Part shown: positions 553-21,601 of the stretch, in pieces
Layout of the letters: the number at the start of each line of letters is the position of its first letter
Position numbering within the stretch: position 1 is the stretch's first letter
Assembly (NCBI RefSeq): GCF_011065895.1
Contig: NZ_JAALCR010000032.1
Coordinates: 1 to 58,927 of the forward strand
DNA: 58,927 nt
From: Paludisphaera rhizosphaerae
GTDB lineage: Bacteria > Planctomycetota > Planctomycetia > Isosphaerales > Isosphaeraceae
Direction: 5' to 3'
Translations under genes and position numbers: made by a program
Notes under the pieces: model-generated
Seen by the model: the letters and a program-made list of their open reading frames with translations, nothing else
Database searches by the model: none
Told to the model about the DNA's origin: nothing

Positions 553-1104
553 ATGCGTCACGCGGAGCCGATGGAGCCCGAGTTGGAACGACTCATCTCC
601 CAGTGCCTGAAGGGGGACGAGTCGGCCTGGGATCTCATGTTCGAGCGTTACCAGCCGCATCTCCTCTCGTACATCCTGTATCTGCTACGGGGCGAGGGGG
701 GCGTTGAGCTGGCTGAAGAGATCGCGGCCGCCGTGTGGTGCTCGCTGTGCAGCGACTCGTTCGTCCGGCTTCGGCGGTTCGATCCGGCGATCGGGGGCTT
801 TCTCCGCTACCTTGGACTGCTGGCCCGAGGCGAGATCTGGCGGCGGAAGCGGGCGGATCGCAGCCGAGCGTCGCGCGAGAGCCGCGTGGCGCGGAAGGAG
901 TCGACGGTTCCCGACTGCGAGCGCGGCCTCGTCATCCAGGAGTTCCTGGACACCCTCACCCCTCGCGAACGTGAATTTTGCCTTGCCTACCTGCTGAACG
1001 AGTTTGAACCCTCCTCTCGCCGCAACTTCAGCGCGGCCAACGGCTGGCAGCTTCGCTGCCGCGTCTTCAAGAAGTTCCGGACCTACTACGGTCGGAACTC
1101 CTGA
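553..1104 (+). CDS. Sigma-70 family (ECF-like) RNA polymerase sigma factor
   Basis: A 183-residue protein built like a small group 4 (ECF) sigma factor, which would direct RNA polymerase to a specific promoter set. Residues about 7-70 resemble region 2 (ISQCLKGDESAWDLMFERYQ, then a hydrophobic helix and an acidic segment). Residues about 130-180 resemble region 4, beginning TPREREF and ending in a basic helix. The ATG at 553 has GAGG five bases upstream; an in-frame ATG at 571 is an alternative. No anti-sigma gene adjoins it, and the next gene encodes a large surface protein. Region 4 is atypical, so promoter recognition is uncertain. Confidence 0.75.
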   Translation: MRHAEPMEPELERLISQCLKGDESAWDLMFERYQPHLLSYILYLLRGEGGVELAEEIAAAVWCSLCSDSFVRLRRFDPAIGGFLRYLGLLARGEIWRRKRADRSRASRESRVARKESTVPDCERGLVIQEFLDTLTPREREFCLAYLLNEFEPSSRRNFSAANGWQLRCRVFKKFRTYYGRNS

Positions 1105-1360
1105 GCGCAGGATTGTCAGGAAACGTGATTGAGTGGGGCACTTTGTTATGTCCGGAGCGGGAAGCCTGGTGTGAGGCCTCCCGACCCGGACGAAGGGTCC
1201 CCGGCGAGAGACGCGAGTGAGCGCGTCCCCGCAGGGATCGCACGTGATCGCCCCTACTCCTCGGCGCCTCGATTCAGGCCGTCCCCCCAGGCGAGGGGGG
1301 ATCGGGTGAACCGTCGCGCCGTCGTCACGACCGAGCCGCTGGATTCAGGAGCCACCGACC

Positions 1361-3844
1361 ATGACTTGGCTTAGCCGTCTCCTCCCGCAGAGCAAGGGCC
1401 ACCACCTCAACACGACCGACTTCAACCGCCGGATCAAGTCGCGCCGCCGGCGCATGACCCTTGAGAATTTGGAGGACCGCGTGGTCCTCAGCAACGTGCT
1501 GGTCACCTTCGATCAGCCCAGCGGCATCCTCACCATCACCCCCGACCAGTTCAACAACCAGTTCAAAATCACCGAACAGAGCACGGCGGCGGGCGGCAAA
1601 GTCGTCGTCGAAGCCCTCCCCGTCCTGCCCGGCGTCTTCCAAACCACCATCAACAGCACGGCCGTCCCCTTCACGTCGTGGGAAGCCGTGACGAAGATCG
1701 TGGTCAATTTCCAGGGCGGCAACGACACTGACGTCGTCCAGCTCGTCGGCCCTGGCGCCGCGGTGAATACAACTGTTCGCGACGTCCAGTACAACTTCAT
1801 CCCGGTGACCGGGACGACAAGCCTGGGCTCGACGGTCCTGCCGGCGCAGGCCTCCTCGATCACCGGCGTCAACAACGCCGGCGGCCTCACGATCGGCTCG
1901 ACGTCCGGCGGCCTTGGCACGGCGGCGACGCCCTTCTCGATCACCAACAGCTCCTTCCAGAGCATGTCGATCACCCAGGCGGGCTCGGGCGCCTCGAACG
2001 TGTCGATGAGCGGCGTTACGGTCGCCGGCAACGTCAGCGTGGCACTGGGGACCACCGCGACCAGCACCCTCGCGATCACCGGGGCCACCTTCGGCCCGAC
2101 CACCTTGACCCAGACCGGCGCCGGCAACGGCGACAGCATCAGCGTCAAGAACTCGACGCTGCAGAATCTGGCGATCGGCCAGGGGAACGGGACCGGCGAC
2201 ATTGTCACGGTGGACACCGTCGCGCTGAGCGACACGGGCAACGGGCTCCGCGTGCAGCAGGGCACTGGAAGCAGCAACACGATCACCGTCACCAAGGTCA
2301 CGACGCCCAGCCTGGCGCCGCCGACGACGATTCCGCCGCTCTCCTCGATCCCGAGCATCATCATCATGCAGGGCGTCGGCGGCAGCGGCATCGGGACGAC
2401 GGCCACGGTCGACCAGTCGGTCGTCGAGGGCGACATCCGGATCAGCCAGGGCAATGGCTACAACGACGTGGCCAGGATCACCAACAGCAGCGGCGGCTTC
2501 GTCGTCGCGGCCAACCCGCCGGTCATCCCGGTGCCGGTCGCCGTTCTGGGCACCGCCTTCATCTCGCAGGGCAACGGCACTAACCTGACGGCCCTGGTCA
2601 GCGGCGGGTCGTTCAACAGCGTGAGTGTCACGCAGGGAACCGCCACCGTGGTTCCGCCAGCGCCGGCCACGCCTCTCCCCAACACGGCGACGGTCACCGG
2701 CTTGACGTTCATCTACGGCGGCATCTCGATCGCCCAGAATAACTCGAACGCCGCCAGCCCGACCGGCGCCACCACGGCGACGATCAGCGGCAACGCCACC
2801 AGCCCGACCGGCAGCCACTCCATCACCCAGGGGGCGACCGCGGGCATGGTCGCCACGATCACGACCAGCTCGGTCACCGCCGGAACCGCGTCGATCACGC
2901 AGGGCAACGGCACCGGTGACAAGGCGACGATCTCGAGCATGACCGCCGGCCTCGGGTTCACCATCGGCCAGGGCAGCGGCACCGGCGACACCGCCACGGT
3001 GACCAGCGTTATTGTGACCGGCGGCAGCGGCCTGGTGAATCAGGCCGGCACTGGTGCGACCGCAACCCTCACCACCGTCACGGTGACCGGCGGCAACGTC
3101 ACGGTCAACCAGGCCGGCGGCACTGCGACTCTGACCACCGTCACGGTGAACAACCCCTCGATTCTGGCGGGCATCGGCAACGTCGTGATCAACCAGACCG
3201 GCGGCGGGACCGCCACCCTGACCGGCATCACGGCCCTGTTCGGCGACCTGTCGATTATCCAGGGCGGCACCGGCGCCAGCACGGCCAGCCTGAAGACCAG
3301 CACGATCGGGTCGACGATCCCGTACGGTCCGTACGCGTTGCCGGTCCGGGGCGCCGTGACCATCAGCCAGAACGGCGGCGGCAGCAGCGCCACGGTCGGC
3401 GCGGCCGGCGGGACGGTTGCGGTCAACGAACTGACGATCTCTCAGGACGCCGCCAGCGCCGGCGGCGGCACGGCGACCGTCGATGGCACGAACGTCGTTG
3501 ACAACCTGACCATCACTCAGGGCGGCAGCGGCGGCAACTACGCGATGTACCTCGCCACCAACGCGAGCGTCACCGTCGGCAACCAGACGAATCTCACCCA
3601 GGGCGGCGCTAACAACGCCATCTTCTTCGCGGCCGTCCTCGGCAACGCGACGACCTTCCTCACCTACGGCCTCCAGGTCCTCGCCGGCACGACGGGCGGC
3701 GCCCTGGTGGCGGCCAAGAACCTCATCGTGCTCGACTTCTTCGGCGGCTACATCGACGCCGGCGGGACGGGCAACACCTTCTTCGACGGCGGCGGCAACG
3801 TGGGCATCATCGTCTCGCCGAACTTCGCCGTCTTCTCGTTCTGA
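1361..3844 (+). CDS. Large repetitive extracellular protein with planctomycete LExLExR N-terminal motif
   Basis: An 827-residue protein low in charge and rich in Gly, Thr, Ser, Asn, Val and Ile. Residues 23-44 are basic (RRIKSRRRR) followed by LENLEDRVVLS at 34-44, the motif found at the N terminus of many large planctomycete secreted proteins. The rest is made of degenerate repeats of about 18-25 residues of the form xxITQGNGTGDTATVTS, most regular from about residue 490 to 700. Such repeats usually form a parallel beta-helix, as in adhesins and autotransporters. CAGGAG lies 9 bases before the ATG. No enzymatic motif is seen; a surface or matrix role is inferred. Two hairpins follow the stop. 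Confidence 0.8.
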   Translation: MTWLSRLLPQSKGHHLNTTDFNRRIKSRRRRMTLENLEDRVVLSNVLVTFDQPSGILTITPDQFNNQFKITEQSTAAGGKVVVEALPVLPGVFQTTINSTAVPFTSWEAVTKIVVNFQGGNDTDVVQLVGPGAAVNTTVRDVQYNFIPVTGTTSLGSTVLPAQASSITGVNNAGGLTIGSTSGGLGTAATPFSITNSSFQSMSITQAGSGASNVSMSGVTVAGNVSVALGTTATSTLAITGATFGPTTLTQTGAGNGDSISVKNSTLQNLAIGQGNGTGDIVTVDTVALSDTGNGLRVQQGTGSSNTITVTKVTTPSLAPPTTIPPLSSIPSIIIMQGVGGSGIGTTATVDQSVVEGDIRISQGNGYNDVARITNSSGGFVVAANPPVIPVPVAVLGTAFISQGNGTNLTALVSGGSFNSVSVTQGTATVVPPAPATPLPNTATVTGLTFIYGGISIAQNNSNAASPTGATTATISGNATSPTGSHSITQGATAGMVATITTSSVTAGTASITQGNGTGDKATISSMTAGLGFTIGQGSGTGDTATVTSVIVTGGSGLVNQAGTGATATLTTVTVTGGNVTVNQAGGTATLTTVTVNNPSILAGIGNVVINQTGGGTATLTGITALFGDLSIIQGGTGASTASLKTSTIGSTIPYGPYALPVRGAVTISQNGGGSSATVGAAGGTVAVNELTISQDAASAGGGTATVDGTNVVDNLTITQGGSGGNYAMYLATNASVTVGNQTNLTQGGANNAIFFAAVLGNATTFLTYGLQVLAGTTGGALVAAKNLIVLDFFGGYIDAGGTGNTFFDGGGNVGIIVSPNFAVFSF

Positions 3845-5635: not shown

Positions 5636-6961
5636 ATGTTTGAGGCCTTGAATCAGAACCCCGTCTTCTCGGGCGGGATCTGGCTGATGGTCGTGGGCGC
5701 GGCGGCGGCCATGCTGCGGAATGCGCCTGGGCGGATCTGGGCGTTCGTGCAGCGACGATTCTCGATCGCCGTCGAGGTGCCCGACCGCGACCCGGCCTTC
5801 CGCTGGCTCCAGGTCTGGCTGGCCTCGCAGCCGTACGCCGGCCGGGCTCGCGACCTGAGCCTGGCGACGACCTGGGTGCCCGCCGACGCCGAGCCCGGAT
5901 CGGAAGGGGCGGTGTCGTTCGACCAGGATGAGAGCGCGTCGCGCGGCGGCGGGACCAAGGTGAAGTTCCTGCTCTCGCCTGCGCCGGGCGTCCACTGGAT
6001 GTTCTACCAGAATCGGTTCGTGATCCTGAACCGGAGCCGTCGCGACCTCCAGGCGGGGAATGCGCGGACGTTCCAGGAAACGCTGTCGCTCCAGGTGCTC
6101 GGCGGCTCGCGTCAACTGATCGAGGATCTGCTGGAGGAGGCCCGCGCGCTGGCCTGCCCGAAGTCGCCGGGGGTGAGCATTCTGACCAGCCGGTATGAGT
6201 CGTGGGAGGCCACGTCGTGGCAGCCGCGACGTCCCTTGGCGTCGCTGGTGCTGAGCGACGGCGTGCTCGAAGAGGTGATGGAAGACCTCCGCGAGTTCAG
6301 CCGGTCGCGAACGTGGTACGTCGAGCGCGGGGTGCCGTATCGTCGCGGATACCTGCTGCACGGGCCGCCGGGCAACGGCAAGACGACGCTGGTGCTGGCC
6401 GCAGCCGGCGAGTTGAACCTGTCGGTCGCCGTCCTCAGCCTGAGCAACCGGATCCTCTCCGACGACTCGCTGCGTGCGATGGTCGACGCGCTTCCCCCCT
6501 CCACGATCCTGCTGATCGAGGACGTCGACTGCGCCTTCAAGACCGAGCGGACGACGGGCGACCAGACCGGCGTGACGCTCAGCGGCCTGCTCAACGCGCT
6601 CGACGGCGTCAGCTCGCGCGAGGGGCGGATCCTGTTCCTGACCACGAACCACCCGGAGCGGCTCGATCCTGCGCTCGTGCGGCCGGGGCGCGTCGATAAG
6701 CGGGTAACGCTGTGCAACGCCACCCGAAGCCAGGCGCGGCGGCTTTACCGCTGGTTCTACCGCGGCTGCGGCGTGACCGACGCCCGCCTCGACGAACTGG
6801 CCAATCTGTTCGCCGAGCAGGTTCCCGAGGGCGAGATCTGCATGGCCGCCGTGCAGGAACACTTCCTCCGGCACCGGAATTCGCCCGAGGCCGCGGCCCA
6901 CGAGGTCGAGTTCGAAACGACCGCGGCCGAAGAGCCGGAGCCCTCGGCCGCGGAACTCTGA
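5636..6961 (+). CDS. BCS1-like AAA ATPase
   Basis: A 441-residue AAA ATPase of the BCS1 type, named after the mitochondrial chaperone that translocates the Rieske protein. A single hydrophobic segment at about 13-27 could anchor it to a membrane, and residues about 40-200 correspond to the BCS1-specific N-terminal region. The AAA core has Walker A GPPGNGKTT at 243-251, Walker B ILLIEDVD at 291-298, sensor-1 TTNHPERLDPAL at about 336-347 and the RPGR motif at 349-352. Bacterial members are of unknown function; membrane-protein remodelling is inferred. It converges with the next gene (15 bp between stops). Confidence 0.85.
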   Translation: MFEALNQNPVFSGGIWLMVVGAAAAMLRNAPGRIWAFVQRRFSIAVEVPDRDPAFRWLQVWLASQPYAGRARDLSLATTWVPADAEPGSEGAVSFDQDESASRGGGTKVKFLLSPAPGVHWMFYQNRFVILNRSRRDLQAGNARTFQETLSLQVLGGSRQLIEDLLEEARALACPKSPGVSILTSRYESWEATSWQPRRPLASLVLSDGVLEEVMEDLREFSRSRTWYVERGVPYRRGYLLHGPPGNGKTTLVLAAAGELNLSVAVLSLSNRILSDDSLRAMVDALPPSTILLIEDVDCAFKTERTTGDQTGVTLSGLLNALDGVSSREGRILFLTTNHPERLDPALVRPGRVDKRVTLCNATRSQARRLYRWFYRGCGVTDARLDELANLFAEQVPEGEICMAAVQEHFLRHRNSPEAAAHEVEFETTAAEEPEPSAAEL

Positions 6962-15157: not shown

Positions 15158-16108
15158 TCAGTTGTCGCGATGGCGTGCGTGGCAGGTCGTGCAGGACTTC
15201 TCGACGGTGGTGAAGGCCGCCTCGATTTTCTCGCGAGAGCCCAGGGCGCGGGTCTTGAGCGAGGCGTGAAGTGCGTCGGCCTTCCGCTCCGCATCCGCCA
15301 GGCCCTGGAGGAAGGCGTCGCCTCGGCTGCGGGCTTCGTCGAGCCGGGCGGCTTCTCGGAAGAACTCGACGACCTGGATCGCGTCGTGCGCCGGGTCGTT
15401 TTCCAGGTGATCGGAAGACGTTGTGAACCCGGCCTTGCGGGCGGCTTTCAAGCGATCCCAGGAGCCGTCGAGTTTCACCATCAGGTCGACGAGGGCCGGA
15501 ACGGGGGAACGTTCGGGGAACTCGTCGCCGACCCGCTTGCGCTCCTCGTCGGTCAGCGGAGTGAACGAGCGGGCCGACTCGTAAAGGCCGCGGTAGTCGG
15601 ACGAGGCTCCGGCCTGTTTCATCCAGTCGACGGCCTGCTCGACGGTCCAACGCTCGGTGGCCATGCCGCAGATCGCCGCGACGGCCGGACCGCGATGCTT
15701 GCCGTGGTGGCAGTGGATGAACACGGGGCCGGGCTGCGTCTCGATGGCCCGGACGATCCGGATCGCCTGCTCGCGGGGCACGCCGTCGTAGCCGATGGGG
15801 AGGTGAACGTAGCGGATGCCCGCCTTGCGCGCCGCCTCAACGTCGGGGATGGATCCGTCCACGCTGATGATCGTCCGGATCGCCATCCGCTTGAGGGCGG
15901 CCATGTCGGCGTCCCCGCGCGGCTCGCCGCCGCTGTAGAGTCGGCGGCTGAGACGGAAGACGTTCTCGATCCCGGGGACGTCATCGGGCTCGGGGCCGGG
16001 CGCGGCCTGGCGTTGATCCCAGGCCGACTCGTACCAGAGCTCGCCGCATTCCACGGCCGACATGATGAGGACGACCGCGACGAGGGCCGCTGCAACTCGC
16101 AGATCCAC
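15158..16108 (-). CDS. Exported tyrosine/dual-specificity phosphatase domain fused to a cytochrome c'-like domain
   Basis: A 316-residue protein with two unrelated domains. A hydrophobic N terminus (1-20) suggests export. Residues about 45-165 form a cysteine phosphatase of the tyrosine/dual-specificity class: the P-loop HCHHGKHR (132-139, Cys133 and Arg139) matches HCxxGxxR, and ISVDGSIPD (81-89) may be the general-acid region. The C-terminal ~140 residues are helical and end with CTTCH (306-310), one c-type heme site next to the C terminus, as in cytochrome c'/c556 four-helix bundles. Export fits heme attachment outside the cytoplasm. Redox or gas sensing coupled to dephosphorylation is an inference. 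Confidence 0.8.
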   Translation of the reverse strand: MDLRVAAALVAVVLIMSAVECGELWYESAWDQRQAAPGPEPDDVPGIENVFRLSRRLYSGGEPRGDADMAALKRMAIRTIISVDGSIPDVEAARKAGIRYVHLPIGYDGVPREQAIRIVRAIETQPGPVFIHCHHGKHRGPAVAAICGMATERWTVEQAVDWMKQAGASSDYRGLYESARSFTPLTDEERKRVGDEFPERSPVPALVDLMVKLDGSWDRLKAARKAGFTTSSDHLENDPAHDAIQVVEFFREAARLDEARSRGDAFLQGLADAERKADALHASLKTRALGSREKIEAAFTTVEKSCTTCHARHRDN

Positions 16109-16148: not shown

Positions 16149-19100
16149 TTACTTCGCATCGGTTGCCGCAACGGCCATGTTCGGCGGGGTCGTCGGCAGG
16201 CCGTGGAGCCGCACGCGGTGGCCCAGGCCGTGGAGGCATTCGTCGATCCAGAGCTTGGTCAGCTTCTCCTGGACCGTGTTCTGCGAGAGCCGGCTGCGGA
16301 GGCCGTCGAAGGCGACGTGGTCCAGCGGCTGGTCCTGGTTGAAGCAGGAGAAGATGACCGTCTCCTTGCCCGTCGCGGGGTCGCGATGGGTCTGGAGGCA
16401 CTGGGCGCAGATCTCCTTCATCATGCACTGCATCGGCGAGTTGATGCTGCCGATGGCGTGGTGGCCCGGCTTGAGGAACGGGGCGAGGACCGTGTGTCTC
16501 GCCTGCTGCACCCCGCGCATCATGCCGTCGGAGCCGATGACGACCAGGCGGTCGACCTCATCGAGGGGGATCTCGATCTCGCCCAGATCGCCGGTGGCGT
16601 AGGCGGCCATCGCTTGCACGATGTTGCCGACGAACGAGCGGTCCTGGACCCGCCCGGGCGTGAACCCGGGGGCCTCGTCCGAGCACCAGACGACGACGGC
16701 TGCCGCGGCCTCGATCTCCTCGACCTTGTAACGGTCGATCAGCTTCTTGTAGCCGGCGAAGTAGAGCACCCGCGAGCCCGCCGCCCGCAGCGCCTGGCCG
16801 ATCGAGAAGAGCACCGCGTTCCCCAGGCCGCCGCCGGCCAGTAGGACCGTCTCCTGGCCGGGCGTCTCGGTCGGCGAGCCGGTGGGGCCCATCAGGCAGA
16901 TGGGCTCGCCCGGCTGGAGCAGGGCGCAGAGGTCCGACGAGCCCCCCATCTCCAGCACGATCGTCGACAGCAACCCGCGCTCGCGGTCGACTGACGCCCC
17001 GGTCAACGCCAGGGCCTCCATCGCCAGGATCGTGGCGCCGTCGCGGCCGGCGAGCGTCTCGAAGTTCTGGAGCCGGTAGAACTGACCGGGCTGGAACGCG
17101 CGCGCGGCGATCGGCGCCCGGACGACGATCTCGACGATGTTGGGGGTGAGGCGAATCACCTCGTGGACGACCGTCCGCAGCTCGTCGTTCAGCTTCGCGA
17201 CCAGGTCGCCCGGGGCGGGTTCGGTCGCGGGCGTCTTGGCGAGGGCTCGCGAGACGACCGGGTAGCCCTGCTTGGCGCTCGCCATCGCCTTGACGACGTT
17301 CCCCGCGAACGAGGGGTGCAGGTCGCCGAAGAAGCTCATCGAGCGGCCGTCGGGGCGCATCGACATCAGCACCCGGACGTCGGTCGGCTTGGAGACGGCC
17401 TCGGGCTTGGCGGGGTTCCCTTCCTCGTCGAGCGCCTGGAAGTAGCGGCCGTCGACGCGGACGTTGTGCGCGTCCTCGCGGGCGAGGACCGTGTTCGGCT
17501 GGGTGCCGGCGGCGACCAGGATCGTCCGGGCCGGGAGCGTCACCTCGCCGGCCGAGGTCAGCGTCCCCGCCTCGGCGTCGAACGCCTGGCGGCGGCACTT
17601 CAAGGCGCGGGCCGCGCCCTGGGAGTCCACCTCCACCTCCTCGGGGACGAGCAGCTCGGCGAAGCGGATCCCTTCCTCGAACGCCTTGGCGACTTCCTCA
17701 TGGTTGAGCGTGTAGCTCGGCGCGTCGACCAGTCGGCGACGGTAGGCGATCGTCACGCCTCCCCACGAGTCGAGCAGCTCGATCAGTCGGGGCTGGCGAC
17801 CCTCAGCCGCCGCGGCCTTGCGCTCGGCACGGATGGCGCGGCCGTGCTCCAGGAACTCGGCGGCGACCTCGGCCTCATCGCCGACCCATCGCGAGCGGAC
17901 GTGGTCCTCGCCGTGGGCCTTGACCAACTCCTCGTAGCGCTTGAGGAACTTCTCGACCTGGACGATGTAATAGGCCAGCGATTCCGTGGCTGTGTCGACG
18001 GCCGTCAGGCCGCCGCCGATGACGACGATCGGCATCCGGACCTGGAGGTTCGCCAGCGAGGCGGCCTTCGCCGCGCCGGTGAGCTGCAGAGCCATGAGGA
18101 AGTCGGACGCCTGCCGGACGCCCCGGGCCAGGCCGTTCTTCATCGGGATGACGGTCGGCCGGCCGGCCCCCATGCAGAGGGCGATGTGGTCGAAGCCCAT
18201 GTCGAAGGCGTCGTCCACGGTCAGCGTGCCGCCAAACCGGACGCCGCCGAACATCGCGAACTCGGCCCGACGTTCCAGTACGAGCCGGATCAGCTTGAGG
18301 AAGTTCTTGTTCCAGCGGACTGTGATGCCGTACTCGGCCACGCCGCCGAAACCGGCCATCACGCGGCGGTCGAGCAGCTCATAGAGCTTCGTCACGTCCC
18401 GGATCGGCTCGAAGGGCGTCCGCTGACCGAAGGCGTCGACGCCCGAGATCGTCTCGTCGAGCGGCTCGATCTTGAGCCCATCGACCGCGACGACCGAATG
18501 GCCGTCGTTCATCAGGTGGTGAGCCAGGGTGAACCCCGCAGGCCCCAGACCGACCACGAGCACCTTCCGCCCGGTGGCCTCGCGCGGGTACGGCCGGGCG
18601 AAGTTCAGCGGGTTCCAGCGCGTGAGGAGGCTGTAGATCTCAAACCCCCAGGGCAGCTCCAGCACGTCCTTGAGCGACCGCGTCTCCGCCTGGGGGATGT
18701 CGACGGGATCCTGCTTCTGGTAGATGCATGACTTCATGCAGTCGTTGCAGATGCGGTGGCCCGTCGCGGCGCACATGGGGTTGTCGATGGTGACGACGGC
18801 CACGGCGGCGATGGGGTGGCCGTCCCCCTTGAGCTCGTTCATCTCGGAGATCTTCTCGCCGAGCGGGCAGCCGGCGAGGGTCACGCCGAAGAGGCTCTTC
18901 TTGAAGGCCCCGGTTTTCTCGCGGAGGCCCGTCGAGCAGGAGTCCTTCCCCTGGTGGTGGCACTTGATGCAGTAGCCGACCTCGTCGAGCGCGCCGGCGA
19001 GATCCGTGCCGGCGTCGGTGAGGTGGAAGCCGTCGCGGTGCCGGGTGTGGCCGATCTTGGCGACGAACTGGGTCGTGCCGTCGGTCTCGCGCTCGTCGTA

Positions 19101-19796
19101 TTCGACGAGGTGGAGGAAGTCCAGCTTGTGGGGGTTGCCGAAGACGACCTTCGAGGGGTGCTTGGCCTTTCCCTCGGGGGAGAGCACGGCCCAGACGGCG
19201 TAGTCGGCGGCGAGCTTGAGCTGCTCCTCGTGCGCGGGTTCGTCTTCCATCCACTTCAGGACGTGCTCGGCGAAGCTCGCCTCGGTGATCGGGCCGAGCA
19301 TGAAGGCTTCCAGCTCGGCGGTCACGGCGGCGGAGTCGATCGCCATGGCGTGTTCGGCCGTCTTGCCCGTGAGCCTCCGCTGGACGAACTTCCGCTTCAC
19401 GGTCCGGAGCGGGGCCAGCTCGTCATGCCGGAGGCGCAGGGCGTTCAGCTCGGCCTCGACATGAAACAGCCGACCGATGAAGTCCTCAACATACGGAGCG
19501 ACGCCGACGATCAGCTCGGACGCCGCCTTGGAGGCCAGGGCCGTTGGGTTCTCGCGAGCCGCGAGCAGCCCGGCGTGGAGTTCCGGGGAACAGGCGAGCA
19601 GATCCGAGAGGAAGGCCGCGTCCAGCCGGACCAGCCCATCGCGAGAGTAGAGGTCTTGGAAGGAGAATCCAAATCCCAGGCGGCTACCGTCGTGGTCAGC
19701 GTGCATGTCACTCGGGGGCGGAGGAGGTACGTACAGTCGTCGTTTCGTCGAGGTCGGTTTCATTATAGCGTCGGCCGATAGCGTCGGCCGCGCCAC
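16149..19796 (-). CDS. Giant FAD/NAD(P)H oxidoreductase: Fe-S rich N domain + GltD-like + PyrK-like module
   Basis: A 1215-residue fusion. Residues 1-400 are a unique domain with a Cys cluster (C276, C279, C287, C310, C342, C350, C353, C357) that may hold iron-sulfur centres. Residues about 408-850 resemble the glutamate synthase small subunit/adrenodoxin-reductase fold: FAD motif GLGPAG at 416-421 and NAD(P) motif GGGLTAVD at 594-601. Residues about 870-1160 resemble the PyrK/FNR electron-transfer subunit, with GGGLGNA at 988-994 and a [2Fe-2S] set C1124, C1130, C1133, C1151. An electron-bifurcating or transfer role is inferred. GTG 19796 has GAGG 9 bases upstream; ATG 19763 is an alternative start. 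Confidence 0.8.
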   Translation of the reverse strand: MARPTLSADAIMKPTSTKRRLYVPPPPPSDMHADHDGSRLGFGFSFQDLYSRDGLVRLDAAFLSDLLACSPELHAGLLAARENPTALASKAASELIVGVAPYVEDFIGRLFHVEAELNALRLRHDELAPLRTVKRKFVQRRLTGKTAEHAMAIDSAAVTAELEAFMLGPITEASFAEHVLKWMEDEPAHEEQLKLAADYAVWAVLSPEGKAKHPSKVVFGNPHKLDFLHLVEYDERETDGTTQFVAKIGHTRHRDGFHLTDAGTDLAGALDEVGYCIKCHHQGKDSCSTGLREKTGAFKKSLFGVTLAGCPLGEKISEMNELKGDGHPIAAVAVVTIDNPMCAATGHRICNDCMKSCIYQKQDPVDIPQAETRSLKDVLELPWGFEIYSLLTRWNPLNFARPYPREATGRKVLVVGLGPAGFTLAHHLMNDGHSVVAVDGLKIEPLDETISGVDAFGQRTPFEPIRDVTKLYELLDRRVMAGFGGVAEYGITVRWNKNFLKLIRLVLERRAEFAMFGGVRFGGTLTVDDAFDMGFDHIALCMGAGRPTVIPMKNGLARGVRQASDFLMALQLTGAAKAASLANLQVRMPIVVIGGGLTAVDTATESLAYYIVQVEKFLKRYEELVKAHGEDHVRSRWVGDEAEVAAEFLEHGRAIRAERKAAAAEGRQPRLIELLDSWGGVTIAYRRRLVDAPSYTLNHEEVAKAFEEGIRFAELLVPEEVEVDSQGAARALKCRRQAFDAEAGTLTSAGEVTLPARTILVAAGTQPNTVLAREDAHNVRVDGRYFQALDEEGNPAKPEAVSKPTDVRVLMSMRPDGRSMSFFGDLHPSFAGNVVKAMASAKQGYPVVSRALAKTPATEPAPGDLVAKLNDELRTVVHEVIRLTPNIVEIVVRAPIAARAFQPGQFYRLQNFETLAGRDGATILAMEALALTGASVDRERGLLSTIVLEMGGSSDLCALLQPGEPICLMGPTGSPTETPGQETVLLAGGGLGNAVLFSIGQALRAAGSRVLYFAGYKKLIDRYKVEEIEAAAAVVVWCSDEAPGFTPGRVQDRSFVGNIVQAMAAYATGDLGEIEIPLDEVDRLVVIGSDGMMRGVQQARHTVLAPFLKPGHHAIGSINSPMQCMMKEICAQCLQTHRDPATGKETVIFSCFNQDQPLDHVAFDGLRSRLSQNTVQEKLTKLWIDECLHGLGHRVRLHGLPTTPPNMAVAATDAK
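19765..19790. repeat. Perfect 13-bp tandem duplication at the oxidoreductase gene start
   Basis: ATAGCGTCGGCCG occurs twice in a row with no mismatch, between the Shine-Dalgarno/GTG (19796) and the in-frame ATG (19763). Thirteen is not a multiple of three, so gain or loss of one copy would shift the frame from GTG but not from ATG. It could be a direct-repeat operator or a slippage site. Confidence 0.6.
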
Positions 19797-20500: not shown

Positions 20501-21601
20501 TTACTCCGGGGCCACCACGAAGATCGCCTCATCCGGCAGCGAGGCGATCCGACGGCCCTCGGCTTCCAGTTGCTCGTGGGGCAGGTTCATGATCGAACGG
20601 ACGAATTCGGGTTTGAGGGTGAAGACGAGGCCGTGGTTGGTCTTGCGGTCGCGGACCACGGTCTTGAGGGCGTCGGCGGAGGCTTCCTCCAGCTTCAGGT
20701 TGAGCTTTCCCGCGCTGACGCCGGTCGCGGCCTGAAGTCCGTCGGCCATGCACGAGTACTGGACCTCGGCCGGACTGCGGTGGACGACCAGCAGGTTGAA
20801 GCTGTGGCGGGGGAGGCTCAGCTCCTTCAACGCGCGCTCACCCATCCGATAGCCCGCGACGGCCCAGGGGCCGGTTGCGCCGTGGACCTCCTTAACGCGC
20901 GCGAGACACTCAGCGACGGCCGGGCCGTAGGCGGCCTCGGGGCTGATCGCGAGCGTGGCCTTCCAGCGGGTCTCCGAAAACTTGCGGCCGTCGCGCTCGC
21001 CGGGGACGCCGTCGATGTACTGGAGGTAGAGCGTCCAGGGGCCTTCGCGAAGGTCGGGGCAGGGGGCCTGGCCCTGGGCGTTGGTGCGAATCTCGGCCGG
21101 TTCCTCGGTCCCGTGGAAGACCTTCACCACGGCGTCGGCGACCGGACGGCCCTTCCAGGTCGCTTTCAGAACCGGCGGGCCGCCCGCGTCGGCGACCAGC
21201 AGGAGGCGAAGCTGGTCGTCTCCCAGGCCGAGGTTCGCCGCGCCGGCGGCGTCGACGGCCCGGGTCTGGGCGTAGGCGGCGAGCTGGATGACGAACGTCT
21301 TGCCCTGGTAATCGATCACGCCCCGATCGGCGTAGGCGCTTAGGAGGGCGGGGCCCGGTTGGGGGAGCCTGGCCTCCAGGCCGTCCGGCAGGCGGACGAC
21401 GTCCAGGGGCTTGCCGTCCGCCCAGACCTTGGTGCTGGCGATCTCCGCCACGCGTTCGGCCTCGCCGGGGGCGGGCGTGTCGCCGAAGGTCATCCGCGCG
21501 GAGTCAGGGGCGTCCAGATGGAACCAGAGTTCATGGGCTCCTGCCTGAGCCGCCCCGAGGGTCAGGATCCCCGCCGCGACGGCGAAGCGGAAGCTTTGCA
21601 T
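20501..21601 (-). CDS. DUF4198-like domain fused to an FmdE-like domain, exported
   Basis: A 366-residue protein with a signal peptide (1-22, ending AGAHELWF, the start typical of DUF4198 proteins). Residues 23-215 follow the DUF4198 plan: beta-rich and carboxypeptidase-regulatory-like. Residues about 228-345 match FmdE of the molybdenum formylmethanofuran dehydrogenase operon (HGATGPWAVAGYRMGERAL; SCMADGLQAATG). The first conserved Cys (C284) is present, but the usual second Cys (TGCT) is Val (TGVS), so metal binding may differ. Planctomycetes carry archaeal-type C1 genes, but periplasmic location argues against a direct role. GAGGAG lies 8 bases upstream, 25 bp after the DUF1559 gene. Confidence 0.75.
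   Translation of the reverse strand: MQSFRFAVAAGILTLGAAQAGAHELWFHLDAPDSARMTFGDTPAPGEAERVAEIASTKVWADGKPLDVVRLPDGLEARLPQPGPALLSAYADRGVIDYQGKTFVIQLAAYAQTRAVDAAGAANLGLGDDQLRLLLVADAGGPPVLKATWKGRPVADAVVKVFHGTEEPAEIRTNAQGQAPCPDLREGPWTLYLQYIDGVPGERDGRKFSETRWKATLAISPEAAYGPAVAECLARVKEVHGATGPWAVAGYRMGERALKELSLPRHSFNLLVVHRSPAEVQYSCMADGLQAATGVSAGKLNLKLEEASADALKTVVRDRKTNHGLVFTLKPEFVRSIMNLPHEQLEAEGRRIASLPDEAIFVVAPE

Follow-up and report, generated by a model that had tools for sequence, protein, structure and literature searches.

The reading frame at positions 15158–16108 of the window, by which we mean the whole 58,927-nucleotide stretch of DNA analysed here, raises the question of whether an exported cysteine phosphatase and a heme-binding cytochrome are really joined in one polypeptide and, if so, what the heme could do for the phosphatase. 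The initial annotation had given these coordinates correctly and had named no strand; the gene lies on the minus strand, as do all of its features described below, with a GTG start at 16108 and a stop codon at 15158–15160, and the 316-residue frame, described there as free of stops, indeed contains no internal stop on that strand. One plus-strand frame over the same interval is also open but translates to a different protein. The whole gene, a phosphatase/class II cytochrome c fusion with an export-type N terminus, gave full-length matches to itself and to its relatives. An AlphaFold model of the whole protein, for which 20 aligned sequences were used, contains two domains (pLDDT 90.2, pTM 0.81), and the pTM suggests that the predicted domains have a defined position relative to each other. 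Every one of the 66 aligned homologues has both the P-loop pattern HCHHGx(H/Y)R and a CxxCH motif at the C terminus, so the fusion is not due to chance; an artefact or frame error was rejected as an explanation, since the fusion recurs across many independent genomes. The combination of an exported PTP-type phosphatase and a heme domain in a single chain is real, and it is unusual.

Apart from the window itself, the 66 aligned rows come from the family (17 loci), from named loci (19) and from the phylum (29). Selection of rows required the letters HCHHG; every locus gave exactly one such frame and none was lost. Four loci were omitted: L012 and L016, whose genomes are already represented by L032 and L034; L051, which is partial; and L069, which is the window itself. 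Those phylum places that had not been fetched were omitted as well. A further 15 fused relatives, picked partly for low score or long frame, were considered beside them (L113, L115–L118, L122–L126, L132–L134, L136 and L137).

An export signal or signal anchor occupies residues 1–28 (16025–16108), where an Arg is followed by a hydrophobic run at about residues 5–19 with a 12-residue mean hydropathy of 3.17, and the model has a helix at residues 3–28. The N-terminal export signal of the initial annotation is supported as an export-type N terminus, and the same crude test is passed by 56 of the 66 homologues, with a lipobox-like pattern in 15 of 66. Seven of the ten failures have a hydrophobic run with no Lys or Arg just ahead of it; the other three (L037, L042 and L047) show no hydrophobic run in the frame that was read.

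Residues ~44–197 (15518–15979) form a predicted phosphatase domain of the PTP/DSP type. A single-sequence phmmer search of the PDB gave as its top match 2m3v (E = 2.7e-11), a 'putative uncharacterized protein' in the PDB that a passage of PMC4409338 identifies with TpbA, the periplasmic dual-specificity phosphatase of Pseudomonas aeruginosa. The whole model aligns with TpbA entry 4r0s over 155 residues (Z 18.2, rmsd 2.8; Foldseek E = 1.2e-8), and TpbA resembles the fusion in its PTP fold, its HC..G..R loop and its export; by contrast, the TpbA chain, 218 residues long in 4r0s, lacks a heme domain, and identity is ~25%. The catalytic P-loop, proposed in the initial annotation as an HCxxGxxR loop at residues 132–139, reads HCHHGKHR at that place (15692–15715; HCKHGNNR in TpbA, in the part of PMC4409338 that describes it). 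It is conserved and intact within a predicted PTP fold, with no sign of the broken active site that the initial annotation had also contemplated: H132, C133, H134, H135, G136 and R139 are each present in 66 of 66 aligned homologues, Cys133 being the candidate nucleophile. Asp108 (15785–15787), a candidate general acid, pairs in the phmmer alignment with Asp105 of TpbA, the general acid proposed in a passage of PMC4409338; an Asp is found here in 55 of 66 relatives and is missing in 11. The Pfam DSPc score of the window protein, 27.3 of 33.5 bits, lies below the curated cut-off, which is a model threshold and not a biochemical feature.

The inositol pyrophosphate phosphatases AtPFA-DSP1 and Siw14 share the fold as well (Z ~16). 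They differ from the fusion in being eukaryotic and without a heme domain, and an excerpt of PMC9038691 presents them as lacking a general-acid Asp, unlike the window protein with its candidate Asp108. The P-loop of AtPFA-DSP1 is, in the same excerpt, Cys-x-x-Gly-Lys-His-Arg (Cys150, Lys151, Arg152, Lys154, His155 and Arg156; PMC9038691), similar to that of the fusion, and a small-molecule substrate is possible because the loop of the fusion ends in the same GKHR (Lys154, His155 and Arg156 in that numbering). On both sequence and model, the domain would be expected to act as a phosphatase.

A different chemistry is suggested by some of the weaker matches, in which Cys133 would carry a persulfide, a role proposed for BLH/DUF442-type domains, with the electrons going to the heme. 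The NCBIfam 'sulfur transferase' model TIGR01244 matches with E = 8.5e-5 (22.6 of 85.85 bits, far under its cut-off), and the DUF442 structure 3gxg was matched in the profile search with E = 2.4e-6; however, TpbA, a proven phosphatase, scores better, and the phosphatase Arg is kept in 66 of 66 homologues and the general-acid Asp in 55 of 66. We regard sulfur chemistry as decidedly improbable. A protective role for the heme can be imagined too, since the cysteines of PTP enzymes are prone to oxidation: the heme domain would keep the catalytic Cys133 alive in an oxidising periplasm by delivering electrons to its oxidised form. The exported appearance of the protein suits such a role, but the PTP domain has no conserved cysteine other than Cys133 in the aligned relatives and we know of no close precedent for reduction of a sulfenate by a heme, which leaves this explanation the least probable of those considered here, and a very faint prospect.

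The C-terminal domain (residues 200–316 plus the stop codon, 15158–15511) was modelled and searched separately, because PTP matches, from the larger domain, filled most of the VIA-align list obtained with the whole model. The separate model (pLDDT 92.4, pTM 0.85) has the four-helix arrangement that the initial annotation had proposed to look for by structure prediction, with helices at 6–26, 40–56 with 58–62, 65–86 and 92–114 in domain numbering. Its best fold match is NaxL (Kusta0087; 6r6m) with Z 14.0 and rmsd 2.3 over 105 residues, ahead of Shewanella cytochromes c' (Z 13.0–13.2; 6a3l 13.1), R. molischianum cytochrome c' (2ccy, 12.8) and cytochrome b562 (256b, 11.8), in a list where unrelated bundles and designed proteins also reach Z ~12, such values not being decisive alone for helical bundles. 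Foldseek gave zero matches under E 0.001 for this domain, its top ones (E 0.08–0.1) being cytochromes c' and NaxLS. A profile built from the 66 members matched cytochrome c' (7.2e-6), the engineered cytochrome b562 6wza (3.9e-5) and cytochrome c-556 1s05 (0.0027) in the PDB, and 61 of the 66 members match Pfam Cytochrom_C_2 (PF01322) singly at E up to 0.01. We identify the domain as a class II cytochrome c because these sequence profile and Pfam matches agree with the fold matches. The window protein itself scores 22.6 (whole) and 24.8 (domain alone) of the 26.5 bits of the curated Cytochrom_C_2 threshold, and is thus under it; since the Pfam cut-offs are narrowly missed for both domains, the fusion could escape automatic annotation.

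The fusion has in common with the cytochrome c'/c556 family (PF01322) the four-helix bundle and a C-terminal motif of the CxxCHxx(F/Y)R type, and differs from it in sitting behind a phosphatase and in having an invariant Met in helix A. With NaxL of Kuenenia stuttgartiensis it shares the character of a planctomycete four-helix c-type cytochrome; in contrast to the fusion, NaxL is a separate small protein that forms a heterodimer with NaxS, and the two are 12% identical. The heme attachment motif CTTCHARHR (residues 306–314, 15167–15193) is intact and begins with the CTTCH that the initial annotation had read at 306–310. Cys306, Cys309, His310 and Arg314 are each present in 66 of 66 homologues, and the 15 further fused relatives all have CxxCH, followed by the Arg in 13, one of the two misses (L115) being cut by a contig end. 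Contig C3 of the same genome encodes proteins over the Pfam cut-offs for ResB (PF05140) and Cytochrom_C_asm (PF01578), ~1.6 kb apart; these cytochrome c maturation genes make it feasible for heme to be attached covalently outside the cytoplasm. The protein is presumably loaded with heme. The window's genome also encodes two further small class II cytochromes (L099 and L100), each with a Met in the first helix by eye; in a profile comparison of Met210 against these two, the alignment stops short of helix A.

The identity of the sixth heme ligand bears most directly on what the heme could do. Met210 (15479–15481), the candidate, lies in helix A and is invariant in the 66 aligned homologues, with a counterpart in 15 of 15 further fused relatives. 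The alignment to 6r6m covers 105 residues (chain 26–130 against model 5–117) and, from these ranges, places Met210 on residue 32 of NaxL; because the aligned length equals the chain span, an ungapped alignment of helix A is very likely. Residue 32 is exchanged in entry 6r6o, and together with C101 in 6r6n, according to the PDB titles. In NaxL this position is Cys32, a heme ligand, where the fusion has Met210, and NaxL, an NO-binding relative, is six-coordinate at rest. For cytochrome b562, the ranges (model 5–115, chain 1–106) put Met210 on residue 7, the Met ligand of that protein, provided that there is no earlier gap; the profile alignment to b562 begins about one helix turn off relative to this structural placement. 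Because Met210 is invariant at the position of Cys32 in NaxL and, less surely, of Met7 in b562, a six-coordinate, c556-like His/Met heme is more likely than an open five-coordinate gas site, and axial ligation by His310 and Met210 is the likely arrangement, judging from alignments and model.

The initial annotation had proposed a cytochrome c'-like heme domain whose heme state or gas binding could gate the phosphatase, or whose heme could serve as a redox partner. The class II four-helix domain with its CxxCH is upheld by our analysis; the open gas site is less well supported, on account of the invariant Met210. A gas sensor, in which a five-coordinate cytochrome c' site would bind NO or CO and thereby gate the phosphatase, would agree with the presence of cytochromes c' among the best matches in both sequence and fold, and with the best fold match, NaxLS, being described as a nitric-oxide-binding cytochrome complex in a passage of PMC11897245. 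Set against this are the Met at the likely axial position and the comparison with NaxL itself, which has Cys32 there and is six-coordinate at rest. Met210 makes gas binding less likely, yet conceivable, because NaxLS is called NO-binding (PMC11897245, in the part cited above); we judge a simple gas sensor to be improbable. A heme ligated by His310 and Met210 would instead favour redox control, possibly with NO, or electron transfer.

Electron transfer provides the strongest of the rival explanations, although we still consider it unlikely. Here the heme would be a plain electron carrier, the two domains would serve one pathway and work independently, and the PTP part would dock or dephosphorylate a partner. 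Electron carriage is the usual role of low-spin class II cytochromes that have a Met ligand, the genome holds the two other small class II cytochromes mentioned above, and Met210 is invariant, more so than HCHHG. In a letter-by-letter reading of the 81 fused homologues, all 81 keep the catalytic Cys, the catalytic Arg, the helix-A Met and CxxCH, and 77 keep HCHHG; among the 15 further relatives alone, the catalytic Cys and Arg are kept in all 15 and HCHHG in 11. The heme side is kept at least as strictly as the phosphatase loop. Two observations speak against independent domains: no conserved redox partner gene adjoins the fusion, and genomes of the window's family carry the HCHHGxHR loop nowhere but in the fused gene, a restriction that suggests a shared mechanism.

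This association between loop and heme domain is the best evidence that we found for joint working of the domains, as far as sequences can tell, and it is weaker phylum-wide. Searched as a DNA pattern, HCHHGxHR turns up in 19 of 45 family genomes, exactly once per genome and every time within the fused gene, and the twentieth family fusion (G004) has the loop HCHHGKYR. The stand-alone PTP relatives that were read in the family have HCARGTCR without CxxCH in 11 of 11 cases, and four short phosphatase-only relatives from the phylum are without the HH pair (HCHAGRHR, HCKNGKHR, HCAHGADR and HCQHGSDR). The exceptions are four of the 15 further relatives, which are fused and have other loops: HCFHGKHR (L124), HCFHGQHR (L125), HCHQGRHR (L117) and TCETGRDR (L116); to these are added L108 and L051, described below, which have the loop and no intact heme motif. 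It appears from these counts that the HCHHG loop type and the heme domain mostly co-occur, as expected if they work jointly, although the relationship is correlative.

Several individual loci illustrate how the two halves may come apart. In L116 (genome G314, frame match 386–659), the His before the catalytic Cys is lost from the TCETGRDR loop and the helix-A Met and a CTRCH motif are intact, so that the heme half seems here to outlast the usual catalytic loop. L051, a verrucomicrobial frame at 5677–6375 on the plus strand, keeps HCHHGKHR, has its middle missing and has CLACR in place of CxxCH; it is probably a decaying copy. In L108 (1082–2035, minus strand), the HCHHGKHR phosphatase domain is preceded by an unrelated N terminus and followed by a C-terminal stretch with weak similarity to a zinc-dehydrogenase domain; this is possibly a chimeric frame or an assembly artefact. 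L068 (6113–6496, minus strand) consists of the cytochrome half alone, 47% identical to that of the window, and its listed frame shows no signal peptide; its genome (G029) also carries the full fusion, and L068 is probably the remnant of a duplicate.

The full-length fusion is present in 20 of the 45 genomes of the window's family, where matches counted together with phosphatase-only relatives reach 43 of 45. In the phylum sample, 140 of 392 genomes match at E up to 1e-20 and few of these matches are phosphatase-only: 132 of 141 listed places extend to the end of the profile (at least to position 288 of its 293). Among the nine others, L111, L112 and L114 are cut by contig ends, L113 still has CxxCH, L106, L107, L109 and L110 are the short phosphatase-only relatives and L108 has its unrelated C terminus. 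A pattern scan of genome contigs, a method of low sensitivity, gave 20 loci whose titles are all those of planctomycetes, Verrucomicrobia or Lentisphaerae, that is, only PVC bacteria. Of 288 genomes sampled across the Verrucomicrobiota phylum, 2 matched: the genome at the centre of the sample and one other, both already among the pattern-scan loci. In a quick tree of 30 chosen rows, the window stands beside L003 from the same genus and the Verrucomicrobiota rows fall in more than one place, with weak deep supports; the tree is compatible with some lateral transfer.

Computation establishes the fusion, its two predicted folds, the intact motifs, their conservation, the export-type N termini and the maturation genes, and on these we base a tentative proposal, to which we give a little less than an even chance: that the protein is an exported TpbA-like phosphatase switched by the state of the class II heme domain joined to it. 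A TpbA-like cysteine phosphatase of the dual-specificity type would act outside the cytoplasm, with Cys133 as nucleophile, Arg139 binding the phosphate and Asp108 as the usual general acid. Cys306 and Cys309 would hold the heme covalently, and His310 and most likely Met210 would be its axial ligands; the redox state of this heme, possibly with NO displacing Met210, would be sensed and then passed to the phosphatase domain, switching the rate at which some periplasmic protein or small molecule is dephosphorylated. We infer both the control of the phosphatase by heme and the kind of substrate, and the conserved fusion also fits with a heme that serves as a mere electron carrier or as a protein anchor. 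The proposed switch also has to be weighed against a loop that is not strictly tied to the heme domain (the four other loops among 15 relatives, and L108 and L051), the missing Asp108 in 11 of 66 homologues, the stand-alone copy of the heme domain in L068, and the lack of a conserved neighbour that would name a substrate or partner. That a phylum-wide class of exported PTP-type enzymes exists, each with a covalent heme of its own whose redox or NO state switches it, is a more doubtful claim, which we consider possible and would not expect.

The surroundings of the gene were compared over 37 loci, using flanking frames of at least 90 residues and the 25 largest clusters, and no neighbour was found in more than 6 of the 37; those that come closest seem, by eye, to belong to large families (a protein kinase, and the family around L045 7831–9351). 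Two bigger clusters, of 23 and 7 loci, consist of frames antisense to the fusion gene itself, according to the examples shown. A conserved operon was rejected, given that this comparison shows no generally conserved neighbour. In the window, an upstream gene on the same strand (16149–19796) ends 40 bases before the start of the fusion. Its 1215-residue product is a pyridine-nucleotide oxidoreductase with PRK06567 (glutamate synthase beta-like) as its best model, at 728 of 1072 bits, and with matches of the dihydroorotate-dehydrogenase electron-transfer type at residues ~880–1050; being below the PRK06567 cut-off, it is a diverged or fused form, and it is absent from the 25 largest neighbour clusters of the 37 loci. 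Farther away, a 366-residue protein (20501–21601, minus strand) carries an FmdE domain at its C terminus, and its N terminus looks signal-like by eye.

Four long frames (L122, L128, L129 and L108) were given to Pfam. L108 looks chimeric, no Pfam domain was found upstream of the phosphatase in L128 and L129, and in L122 the additional domain is genuine, namely a nucleoside transporter: its frame (915–3275, plus strand) is a triple fusion of a Na+ nucleoside transporter (CNT), the phosphatase and the cytochrome, ending CDACHRQWRNPSGP. A similar transporter lies ~5 kb from the fusion gene in L133, which belongs to the same numbered family as L122. These transporters could hint at nucleotide salvage; we do not take them to name the substrate, because tblastn over the loci found the transporter only in L122 and L133.

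Heme sensors drive kinases, cyclases and phosphodiesterases, and to our knowledge none is built into a phosphatase of the PTP type; each half of the fusion is of a known kind, and it is their conserved combination that is, as far as we know, new. No description of such a fusion was found in a search of open-licence PMC papers for planctomycete, phosphatase and cytochrome fusion. A single exportable protein, matched in 140 of 392 genomes of the phylum, offers a direct test of redox or NO control of a phosphatase, and it hints at an extracytoplasmic phosphorylation chemistry in planctomycetes that could be read by respiration or nitrogen oxides. The gene is also found on plasmids. Among the 15 of 20 tblastn matches to plasmids that were listed, two planctomycete plasmids have the whole protein and the other 13 have the phosphatase half or little more; when 24 kb of the window were compared with plasmids at near identity, there was no match. 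The two plasmids, of Aquisphaera giovannonii and Planctomyces sp. SH-PL62 (L130 and L131), both belong to replicon cluster 171. Current annotation hides the fusion, in that neither label names a cytochrome: the copy on A. giovannonii pOJF2_1 is annotated 'dual specificity protein phosphatase' and that on pPL62-1 of Planctomyces sp. SH-PL62 'hypothetical protein', with a cytochrome c oxidase gene cluster ~2 kb away from the latter.
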